DNA from: Marinobacter sp.
GTDB lineage: Bacteria; Pseudomonadota; Gammaproteobacteria; Pseudomonadales; Oleiphilaceae
DNA length: 38,077 bases
Direction of reading: 5' to 3'
NCBI GenBank assembly: GCA_018623515.1
Contig: JAAZVL010000011.1
Coordinates: 1 to 38,077, forward strand
Shown here: piece after piece, positions 4,292 through 35,284 of the stretch
Layout: the number at the start of each line of letters is the position of its first letter
How positions within the stretch are numbered: the stretch's first letter is position 1
Notes under the pieces: model-generated
Databases searched by the model: none
Told to the model about the DNA's origin: nothing
What the model saw: the letters and a program-made list of their open reading frames with translations, nothing else
Made by a program: the position numbers and the translations under genes

Positions 4292-4368
4292 CGGGGCGTA
4301 GCGCAGCTTGGTAGCGCATCTGCATGGGGTGCAGAGGGTCGCAGGTTCAAATCCTGCCGTCCCGACCA
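4292..4368 (+). tRNA. tRNA-Pro (anticodon GGG)
   Basis: Seventy-seven bases fold as a complete cloverleaf with encoded CCA. The acceptor arm is CGGGGCG with CGTCCCG (one G-T pair), the D arm is GCGCAGCTTGGTAGCGC, and the T arm carries GGTTCAAATCC. The anticodon stem TCTGC/GCAGA encloses loop ATGGGGT, giving anticodon GGG at 4326-4328. A possible extended -10 (TGGTGTAGACT, ending at 4238) lies about 55 nt upstream. In Pseudomonas a tRNA-Pro follows ihfA-merR directly; here a three-gene block separates them. Confidence 0.97.
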
Positions 4369-26096: not shown

Positions 26097-26936
26097 TCAG
26101 CTGGCATCCGCCCGGAAGCGGACCTCATACCCGGTAAATTTGCGGATATTGATCACGCCGGTATCGAGAATCAGGTACTGGCCCTTGATGCCTTCCAGCA
26201 CCCCTTCCACTTCCGGTGTCTTATCCAGATTATGGGTTTTGATCTTTGACGGCCAGATTTCGACCGGATAACGGAGCTCAAGCCCGGACTCGTCCACTTC
26301 CCGAATGGCGTCTTCCCCATGGACCTCACGCAAATCAGCAATATCGGTGGCAATGGCCGCAAGCATTTTCTGTCGCTCTGCCACGAGATCCAGTTCGGGC
26401 ACATCCCCCTTGAGCATGGCGCGCCAGTTGGTGCGGTCGGTGACATGGCACTTGCACGCTACCTCCACCAGACCGGCGATGTAGCGGGTTCTGACCCGGA
26501 CCATGGGAATGGCCTCTACCGCCCCCTGGTCAATCCAGCGAGTCGGCACCTGGGAGGCACGGGTGATGCCAACCTTGAGCCCGGACGAGTTGGCCAGGTA
26601 CACCACATGCTCGACCATGCAGTGGGTCTCGCCCCACTCGGGTTCCCGGCAGGTACCCAGGTGGTAGTGGCACTTTTCCGGACTCATGATGCAGCTGTCG
26701 CACGCCGCCAGCTTGCGGAAACAGGGATAACAGTAGCCCTGATTGAAACTCTTCCTGGTCTTGCGGTCGCAATGGATGCAACGGATAACGCCGTCAAAAT
26801 CGATCCTGATGGCGTGACCAATCAGGTCGTTCATTGGTACCCGGGCGTCGCCCACGGCAATGGTGTACGAAACAGGCTGCCCCACTTCGACCGGCATCTT
26901 GCGCAACCGGCCGGTTACATCGATGGCATCGCTCAA
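26097..26936 (-). CDS. DUF2797 protein with cysteine-rich zinc-binding and GIY-YIG-like regions
   Basis: A 279-residue cytoplasmic protein of unknown function (DUF2797). Residues about 50-105 hold a cluster of C-x2-C and related pairs (CIHC, CYPC, CDSC, CHYH, C in GTCRE, HC in ETHCMVEH), which look like zinc sites. Next comes VVYLANSSGLKVGITR...PTRWIDQGA, which resembles the start of a GIY-YIG nuclease fold; that similarity is by eye only. The start is TTG at 26936, overlapping the yeaC stop (TTGA) and preceded by GAGGT within yeaC, so translation is coupled. An in-frame ATG at 26897 is an alternative. The same neighbour order with pepN is, from memory, found in Pseudomonas. Confidence 0.85.
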   Translation of the reverse strand: MSDAIDVTGRLRKMPVEVGQPVSYTIAVGDARVPMNDLIGHAIRIDFDGVIRCIHCDRKTRKSFNQGYCYPCFRKLAACDSCIMSPEKCHYHLGTCREPEWGETHCMVEHVVYLANSSGLKVGITRASQVPTRWIDQGAVEAIPMVRVRTRYIAGLVEVACKCHVTDRTNWRAMLKGDVPELDLVAERQKMLAAIATDIADLREVHGEDAIREVDESGLELRYPVEIWPSKIKTHNLDKTPEVEGVLEGIKGQYLILDTGVINIRKFTGYEVRFRADAS

Positions 26937-27226
26937 GACTTGACCTCTACGAACTGGTCCGGATCGATATCCTGGTTGTTGCTGGCAGCGGGCTGGACGG
27001 AGGGATCACAGGCCGTTCCGGCCTTGCTGCCTCGGTCCAGGTAACCCACCCGCTCTTCTTCGGGTACGTTGTGTTTGTTCTCGTAGTAGATCACCGCTTC
27101 CAGGCTGATAGCGCGCTGCTCGGCTGTCATCTTGCGGCCATCCGGCCACTTGCCCAGCTCAATGGACTGTCGAAGGTTCCGGTACACTGCCGGATCCAGC
27201 CGTTCGATCAGCTCTTCGTAAGTCAT
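26933..27226 (-). CDS. yeaC: YeaC family protein (DUF1315)
   Basis: A 97-residue protein with the DUF1315 core MTYEELIERLDPAVYRNLRQSIELGKWPDGRKMTAEQRAISLEAVIYYENKHNVPEEERVGYL. The last 30 residues are low-complexity and acidic. Function is unknown. The frame can start at GTG 27250, but ATG at 27226 has AGGAG 6 nt upstream. It overlaps the DUF2797 start by 4 nt. A Fur box (27285-27303) lies about 60 nt upstream and could also affect this gene on the minus strand. Confidence 0.88.
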   Translation of the reverse strand: MTYEELIERLDPAVYRNLRQSIELGKWPDGRKMTAEQRAISLEAVIYYENKHNVPEEERVGYLDRGSKAGTACDPSVQPAASNNQDIDPDQFVEVKS

Positions 27227-27269
27227 TCCGCTCTCCTGAAAAACCTTCACAAAAAATTGCCAAAACCGT

Positions 27270-27299
27270 TTGACAGACGCAAACGATAATAATTATCAT
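27270..27299 (+). promoter_or_regulatory. sigma-70 promoter of a candidate Fur-regulated small RNA
   Basis: A perfect -35 TTGACA (27270-27275) lies 18 nt before TATCAT (27294-27299, five of six -10 bases). The -10 is inside the Fur box. Transcription would start near 27306. Confidence 0.65.
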
Positions 27300-27303
27300 T
27301 ACC
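27285..27303. promoter_or_regulatory. Fur box
   Basis: The 19-bp site GATAATAATTATCATTACC matches 16 of 19 bases of the classical Fur consensus (GATAATGATAATCATTATC). It covers the -10 of the plus-strand promoter, the expected position for repression by iron-loaded Fur, and lies about 60 nt upstream of yeaC on the other strand. Confidence 0.75.
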
Positions 27304-27305
27304 AT

Positions 27306-27393
27306 ACCAAATGACAACGGTCGTATCATTTGGTCTCTCTCATCAGGAGCTAAAAGCTCTTTTTACGCCCCGCCCTTTGGCGGGGCTTTTTTT
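27306..27393 (+). ncRNA. candidate iron-responsive small RNA (RyhB/PrrF-like logic)
   Basis: Between the promoter/Fur box and a strong terminator lies about 88 nt with no gene. The RNA would begin with a 9-bp hairpin (ACCAAATGA with TCATTTGGT, 27306-27334). A single-stranded C/U-rich stretch CUCUCUCAUC (27335-27344), complementary to purine-rich ribosome sites, follows. Next is a small GAGC/GCTC hairpin with a UUUUUA tract (27347-27365), a plausible Hfq site, and then the terminator. The only ATG (27311) opens a frame that runs through the terminator, so a peptide is unlikely. Length and architecture match Fur-repressed sRNAs that shut off iron-using proteins under starvation, but I see no sequence match to RyhB or PrrF. 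Confidence 0.6.
27367..27393 (+). terminator. intrinsic terminator of the candidate sRNA
   Basis: GCCCCGCC and GGCGGGGC form an 8-bp stem with a CTTT loop followed by T7. The U-tract is on the plus strand only, so it does not serve the rhomboid gene that ends at 27400 on the minus strand. Confidence 0.9.
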
Positions 27394-27399
27394 ATCCAC

Positions 27400-28254
27400 T
27401 CAGTTTTTTCTTACGGGCAAAACCAGCGCACAGAGCAATCCCGCAATAAAACCGCCCAGGTGAGCCTCATTGGCCATCCTGCCCAGACCCAGCATTTCCG
27501 GCAATGGGGTAAAACCGAGAACCATCCAGATCACCGCAAAGGTCACCAGCGCAGGCGGGAACTGGAACCTGGGCGCTCGATGCTGGCTCAGCCAGCAATA
27601 GCCAAGAACGCCGTACACGACGCCGGACAGCCCGCCAAACAGCGGCCCGGACACCAGGTACTGTAACCCATTGGACAACAGGCTCGTCACCAGGAACAGG
27701 ACAACCAGCCGACCCTTGCCGTCAAACCACTCGACCTGGCTGCCAAGGAACCAGAGCATCACCGAATTGAAAATGATGTGGGTCCAGCTGAAATGCAGGA
27801 AATCCGGTGTAATCAGACGCCAGACCTGCCCACTGGCCAGCGTCGCCGACAGCGCATCGATGCGACCGCCGAAGGTGGTCCAGTCAAAGCTCCTGGGGTC
27901 TACCACCATCAGCGCGGCAGAGAGCTGATTGGAGCCCATCCCCGTCAGCCAGACCATCACCACGGCAAAAACGATCATGCCCAGCACCAGGGGCGCGTGA
28001 CGAGGAGCCGGTTGCCAGCGACCGCCAACGAAGGCCGGCGAACGATTCCGGGTTGCCACCGCCTCCCTGAGCCCGGGTTCGGCAAGATAGCGCTCGAGCG
28101 CGGCCAGAACCGGCTCGATGTGCTCGTCATGCTCCAGCCAGAGCACCTGCTGACCGCCTTCTTCCGTTATCCGGTGTCCCACGCCCTGATCCCTCAGCCA
28201 TTGGCTGAATTCGGCAAGGTTCACCGAGGTATCCAACTGCTTTACCCGATACAA
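27400..28254 (-). CDS. rhomboid intramembrane serine protease, GlpG type
   Basis: A 284-residue protein with a cytosolic N-terminal domain (residues 1-85, similar to the GlpG NRho domain) and six predicted membrane helices. The catalytic serine is S210 in GGLSGVVYG and the catalytic histidine H265 in ANEAHLGGFIAG. H159 and N163 (SWTHIIFN) supply the oxyanion-site residues, and WRLITPDFLH marks loop 1. It should cleave transmembrane segments of other membrane proteins; substrates are unknown. The start is TTG at 28254 with a good GAGGT 5 nt upstream. It lies 46 nt after the phosphatase gene. Confidence 0.93.
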   Translation of the reverse strand: MYRVKQLDTSVNLAEFSQWLRDQGVGHRITEEGGQQVLWLEHDEHIEPVLAALERYLAEPGLREAVATRNRSPAFVGGRWQPAPRHAPLVLGMIVFAVVMVWLTGMGSNQLSAALMVVDPRSFDWTTFGGRIDALSATLASGQVWRLITPDFLHFSWTHIIFNSVMLWFLGSQVEWFDGKGRLVVLFLVTSLLSNGLQYLVSGPLFGGLSGVVYGVLGYCWLSQHRAPRFQFPPALVTFAVIWMVLGFTPLPEMLGLGRMANEAHLGGFIAGLLCALVLPVRKN

Positions 28255-28300
28255 TTCTCACCTCACGATCAGGGGTATTGGCCCACCCTCGAACAAACCA

Positions 28301-35207: not shown

Positions 35208-35284
35208 TGGCGGAGCGGACGGGACTCGAACCCGCGACCCCCGGCGTGACAGGCCGGTATTCTAACCAACTGAACTACCGCTCC
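35208..35284 (-). tRNA. tRNA-Asp (anticodon GTC)
   Basis: Seventy-seven bases form a full cloverleaf ending in encoded CCA. On the minus strand it starts GGAGCGGTAGTTCAGTTGG. The anticodon stem encloses CTGTCAC with GTC at 35250-35248, and the T arm contains GGTTCGAGTCC. A perfect-consensus promoter lies about 70 nt upstream. T5 immediately follows the CCA. Confidence 0.97.

Follow-up and report, generated by a model that had tools for sequence, protein, structure and literature searches.

The intergenic region separating yeaC from a rhomboid protease gene in Marinobacter sp. very probably encodes a conserved, Fur-repressed small RNA (sRNA). We are confident in reading it as a trans-acting, base-pairing and putatively iron-sparing RNA of the PrrF type, diverged and scoring below the Rfam cut-off. 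An initial annotation had proposed a Fur-repressed sRNA built on the RyhB/PrrF plan for this region, and that proposal is well supported by conservation, by covariation and by complementarity to the leaders of iron-enzyme genes.

The locus lies in a window of 38,077 nt, by which we mean the whole stretch of DNA that was analysed. The DUF1315 gene at 26933-27226, which we take to be yeaC, and the rhomboid protease gene at 27400-28254 are both located on the minus strand. Between them, the plus strand carries a unit of promoter, Fur-type box, predicted RNA and terminator. Elsewhere in the window, genes for tRNA-Pro(ggg) and tRNA-Asp(gtc) occupy positions 4292-4368 and 35208-35284, respectively.

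The sigma-70 type promoter (27270-27299, plus strand) comprises a perfect TTGACA (27270-27275), an 18-nt spacer and TATCAT (27294-27299), just as initially described, and matches the consensus at 11 of 12 positions. The motif scan of 26500-28300 returned two promoter-like sites, with 0.6 expected from shuffles. Conservation of the promoter was assessed in a fetched set of 70 Marinobacter-type loci with 71 copies (69 of the loci come from Marinobacter genomes and one from G307, a genome of a different genus); TTGACA is present in 63 and TTGAC in 70 of the 71 copies. A Fur-type box, assigned to neither strand, covers the -10 element (27285-27303). Scored against what we take to be the Fur consensus, it reaches the previously reported 16 of 19 positions on the plus strand and 17 of 19 on the minus strand. 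It is the sole site with three or fewer mismatches in the 38-kb window, and no such site occurred in 100 shuffles. All 71 fetched copies keep a Fur-like box with a best match of at least 15/19. The Fur protein itself is encoded in the window's genome (NF006999, 182 bits, cut-off 146).

With its start inferred from the promoter, the predicted RNA is 88 nt long (27306-27393, plus strand). It folds into a 5' hairpin with a 9-bp stem (27306-27334), an open CUCUCUCAUC, a small middle hairpin AGGAGCU-AAA-AGCUCUU (27345-27361) and an intrinsic terminator (27367-27393), whose stem of eight G-C pairs (27367-27386) is followed by T7. This fold is considerably more stable than expected (z -6.45; none of 200 shuffles as stable) and shows both the 9-bp hairpin and the exposed C/U-rich segment that had been predicted. 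Alignment of the distinct RNAs together with their folds defines an invariant core, UCUCUCAUCAG (27336-27346), as the presumed pairing segment. The terminator was likewise recovered, but the distance of about 88 nt originally given for it is that to the end of the RNA; the stem starts roughly 61 nt in. The terminator scan is weak taken alone (two found, 1.6 expected), so the support for this element comes from its conservation.

A DNA search matched the unit in 120 of 124 Marinobacter genomes, the genus being assigned by named records, and in 108 of the 110 good ones. G021, which gave no match, has lost promoter and core and retains yeaC, the terminator and just a few bases (a remnant, L392). 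G067, also unmatched, has a contig that ends inside the sRNA gene, and G064 and G076 (62% and 76% complete) have neither a unit match nor a rhomboid match. Loss in close relatives, which the initial annotation had named as evidence against an sRNA, was thus found in one examined genome, G021. All 70 fetched loci lie between yeaC and the rhomboid gene. The core UCUCUCAUCAG is kept in 71 of 71 copies, and the 67 distinct RNAs share an identical TCTCTCATCAG amid varying surrounding sequence. On these sequence grounds, the unit between the two genes is a conserved gene. Genomes among those listed hold a single full-length copy, with the exception of G120, where locus L079 has two tandem copies (986-1145 and 1219-1378) 233 bp apart, each with its own Fur-like box. 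This arrangement resembles the PrrF1/PrrF2 layout, and read-through could yield a longer, PrrH-like RNA.

Outside the fetched set, named GTDB contigs were scanned with a pattern, which returned at least 117 stretches. Among the 80 listed, 55 loci were confirmed by R2, a model built from the Marinobacter-type set alone and without the promoter: by record title, 53 are Marinobacter, one is Halomonas sp. (L301) and one an Oleiphilaceae bacterium (L310). Full-length copies scoring 74-113 bits are present in 54 of these 55, and the copy in L321 is truncated at the locus end (46 bits). L301 belongs to a MAG labelled Halomonas sp. and carries the Marinobacter-type sRNA; its label is probably wrong. 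Apart from L316 and L334, the other 25 listed stretches bear titles from other groups and were taken as chance matches.

The predicted structure is conserved as well. RNAalifold gave only the terminator as consensus (six pairs), so the three-hairpin structure was named from the window's fold and tested after that choice, which favours the structure somewhat. On this structure 95.9% of cells pair, and pairing falls to 36-52% when the partner columns are slid by 1-3. Co-varying stems, proposed earlier as a check across the genus, were indeed found: 8 of 21 pairs have changed on both sides among the relatives, five of them within the eight pairs of the terminator stem. None of 500 shuffles equalled the covariation score, although relatedness lies outside the shuffle control and the score gives no probability for kin sequences. 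Folded alone, each of the 67 RNAs forms the terminator, a 5' stem of at least 6 bp and a middle hairpin of at least 4 bp, and in 66 of these folds at least seven of the eight scored core bases are unpaired.

These patterns bear on two readings that involve no separate RNA or a protein. The region might be a cis element, belonging either to yeaC as its 5' leader or promoter region or to the rhomboid gene as its terminator, and a weak promoter-like site on the minus strand (9/12) does overlap the Fur-type box. We consider this very unlikely, because the T-run follows the stem on the plus strand only, opposite to both neighbours, unlike a terminator of yeaC or of the rhomboid gene; in addition, the stems covary around an unchanging core, and the tandem units of G120 each have their own box. 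The chance of a small protein gene seems negligible. An open reading frame of 50 codons starting at ATG 27311 (27311-27463, plus strand) is present, the only one of at least 40 aa on that strand overlapping the RNA, but conservation tracks the stems and the core, and no frame conservation was found for it among the 67 RNAs, where indels leave the core in each of the three possible frames with respect to the RNA start (34, 22 and 11 of 67).

For the sRNA, the C/U-rich segment had been suggested to pair with purine-rich ribosome sites, and complementary, conserved leaders were found for acnB, gltD, sodB and sdhC. Here sodB ([Fe] superoxide dismutase) and gltD (glutamate synthase small subunit, presumably the 4Fe-4S subunit) were identified by NCBIfam, acnB and sdhC by the family searched. 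In acnB, CUGAUGAGGG precedes the start in 29 of 30 loci; CTGATGAGGG lies within 25 nt of the start, again in 29 of 30 loci, and offers eight Watson-Crick pairs plus a G-U and a G-C with the core. The acnB motif block is 92-95% conserved, the flanks 56-62%. In gltD, UGAUGAGAG stands before the start in 24 of 30 loci, and TGATGAGAG is kept in 24 of the 30 intergenic gltD leaders (L394-L423). The gltD motif was also considered as the coding end of gltB and this was rejected: in 24 of 24 motif loci the open frame upstream ends 75-93 nt short of gltD, so the motif is intergenic. A possible new target is gltD. GAGAGA occurs upstream of the ribosome site of sodB in 29 of 30 loci, with the leader anchored 3 nt before its ATG. 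The sdhC leaders have a purine-rich block, GAGAGTGTGAGAGCGC, in 30 of 30 loci, and contiguous pairing of this block with the core region is limited to 6-7 bases. No conserved site was found for bfr in 30 species (a 10-nt match in two), and its leaders are only 53-58% conserved near the start. All these target motifs resemble ribosome sites, are at or near them and would be conserved there anyway.

The background consisted of 342 gene starts, called crudely in a single genome (G007). Among the four chosen candidates (acnB, sdhC, sodB and bfr), duplex energy is unusual only for acnB, whose leaders average about the top 6% of the 342 starts; the ranking does not single out sdhC, sodB or bfr, and overall it is unimpressive except for acnB and gltD. 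At least eight contiguous Watson-Crick pairs with the core region are reached by 8 of the 342 starts, gltD among them, so an 8-mer alone is no proof and the weight lies on conservation across species. It was for its longest match that gltD was picked from these starts, and it was tested in the genus afterwards. The pattern CTGATGAGRG has seven occurrences in the window's genome, namely in the sRNA gene, at acnB -18, gltD -14 and lptG -22, and in three other places; a reversed control pattern occurs twice. At about position 1501 of L429, a perfect CTGATGAGGG core complement lies 22 nt before lptG (named by NCBIfam). In P. aeruginosa, PrrF is reported to affect sdhCDAB, acnA, acnB and sodB (accessible parts of PMC2851614 and PMC13104616) and to pair with antR, helped by Hfq (accessible part of PMC5501646); acnB, sdh and sodB are thus among both the reported PrrF targets and the targets predicted here.

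Evident similarity to RyhB or PrrF had not been seen initially, and a search with covariance models had been suggested. Both models score below their cut-offs. The earlier view holds for RyhB (RF00057; 17.5 bits, cut-off 55, over 27352-27393 only) but not for PrrF (RF00444), which is the best sub-threshold Rfam match at the locus with 41.8 bits against a gathering cut-off of 90. This locus is also the only match of the PrrF model in the window's genome. When the transcribed part alone is searched, PrrF keeps the most bits (30.4, E 5.3e-4), and anti-hemB, a Burkholderia family, obtains 24.9 bits at a slightly lower E of 2.1e-4. HrrF and IsrR are other iron-responsive sRNAs with an analogous role. 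NrrF and ArrF, named in PMC2851614, belong here as well, and RyhB is described there as an iron-repressed RNA that spares iron, the same logic as presumed here. NrrF, ArrF, HrrF and IsrR are absent among the Rfam matches listed at the locus, and some of them may have no Rfam model.

When the order was searched with the PrrF model, 51 of 293 genomes were matched (E<=0.01), 12 of them above the cut-off; none of 14 control genomes was. Eight of 12 listed members of the genus (the window's genome and 7 of 11 others, a single time in each) as well as G307 were matched, each at the yeaC-rhomboid locus. Multiple matches were observed in L051 (G373:C3:1547549-1548839), which belongs to another family and has five in tandem, 277-302 bp apart, and in G223, which has three.

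In the opposite direction, R2 recognises PrrF in two whole genomes that have a PrrF above the Rfam cut-off, at 42.0 and 40.1 bits and thus higher than the inspected noise of about 35. It also matched 30 of 30 PrrF loci at the right place, most of them at noise level, these loci having been chosen by the PrrF model and having the terminator in common. Over the order, R2 gave matches at E<=0.01 in 93 of 341 genomes, a number well beyond what its rough E-values would lead one to expect. Nine matches from outside the genus were inspected: L116, L119 and L123 are PrrF-like with the core visible, and L120, L121, L122, L124, L126 and L129 are coreless, share mainly a GC terminator and were counted as noise. 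Since such coreless matches reach about 35 bits, only matches above about 35 bits or with a visible core were counted. L121 and L124, from two f36 genomes, are alike in having TCTCTCTCGACAGC followed by a hairpin and a terminator, and are perhaps a separate C/U-rich RNA or a 3' end. A further model lacking both promoter and terminator (R3) was run over 500 kb, of which about 100 kb were PrrF loci and 400 kb background; 15 of its 17 best matches are PrrF copies, the best at 18.8 bits, but the top match (20.1 bits) and one other are a coreless chance hairpin in G007 (L262), which makes this homology test suggestive only.

Bridging sequences complement the model scores. L316 and L334, two Oleiphilaceae records flanked by yeaC and the rhomboid gene, carry TCTCTCATCAG followed by AATCACAG or TTCACAG; the core-region sequences of the two are TCTCTCATCAGAAAAATCACAG and TCTCTCATCAGGAACTTCACAG. 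Because the pattern that retrieved both already demanded the core, only their synteny and post-core sequence are independent evidence. Rfam lists neither as PrrF at E<=0.01. Five f38 loci (L051, L059, L060, L119, L123) carry TCTCTCATCAAGCTAATCACGG, f38 genomes have TCTCTCATCA plus AGCTAATCACGG, and PrrF above the Rfam cut-off typically has TCTCCTCATCAGGCTAATCACGG. Of the model-consensus PrrF core, UCUCCUCAUCAGGCUAAUCACGG, the first half is kept here minus one base and the second half is a hairpin. The syntenic Oleiphilaceae RNAs look intermediate between the Marinobacter sRNA and PrrF, and given this series, the strongest argument in the comparison, common descent with Pseudomonas PrrF is likely. 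PrrF likewise has a Fur-type box on a sigma-70 promoter, a 5' stem, an open C/U-rich UCUC-UCAUCAG core and an intrinsic terminator. Compared with it, the Marinobacter sRNA has a shorter 5' part, UCUCUC in place of UCUCCUC and a hairpin replacing GCUAAUCACGG, and it usually occurs as one full-length copy at the yeaC-rhomboid locus (70 of 70 fetched loci). The PrrF genes of P. aeruginosa are in tandem (accessible part of PMC4211561), as are the G120 copies.

An independent origin would mean that a Fur-regulated sRNA converged on the PrrF plan and that the UCAUCAG core reflects similar target leaders rather than descent. A large share of the PrrF score indeed comes from promoter, Fur box and terminator, the similarity of the core alone is short, and in 32 PrrF loci (L031-L060, L119, L123), each covered by about 3 kb of sequence, neither yeaC nor the rhomboid gene was matched. 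Such convergence is nevertheless unlikely in view of the graded series of sequences, from TCTCTCATCAG with AATCACAG or TTCACAG in the syntenic Oleiphilaceae to TCTCTCATCA with AGCTAATCACGG in f38, and of the PrrF and Marinobacter models each matching the other's locus. Set against these mutual matches and bridging sequences are the weak scores obtained when promoter and terminator are left out. As the cut-off is not reached, the core-only scores are weak and the Oleiphilaceae RNAs are unlisted by Rfam, we call the sRNA "PrrF-like" rather than PrrF.

For a diverged PrrF-type sRNA we propose the following scenario. In the presence of iron, Fur bound at 27285-27303 would block the -10 element. 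A drop in iron would allow transcription of the 88-nt RNA up to its own terminator, and Hfq would bind the U-tail of the latter. Through its exposed, invariant UCUCUCAUCAG, the RNA would then pair with the mRNA leaders of iron enzymes, best with acnB and gltD and next with sodB and sdhC, which would reduce their translation and save iron. During its divergence from PrrF, the second half of the core (GCUAAUCACGG) would have turned into the small hairpin.

In the literature searched (titles and beginnings of abstracts), no description of such an RNA in Marinobacter was found. Marinobacter is a common marine genus, and growth in the sea is limited by iron. If our reading is true, this PrrF-like sRNA of Marinobacter and its Oleiphilaceae relatives would be the RNA arm of the Marinobacter Fur response, linking iron to the TCA cycle, to superoxide defence and perhaps to nitrogen assimilation. 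Annotation of PrrF-type RNAs in the order seems to be incomplete, given that 39 of the 51 PrrF-matching genomes have no match above the Rfam cut-off. We tentatively put forward, with some doubt, that they may form an ancient, order-wide family beyond Pseudomonas, in which the Marinobacter branch was remodelled by turning half of the core into a hairpin and recruited GltD, an Fe-S enzyme subunit of nitrogen assimilation, as a core target beside acnB, sodB and sdhC. The sRNA also offers a ready test set for the evolution of the pairing core of an iron-sparing sRNA.
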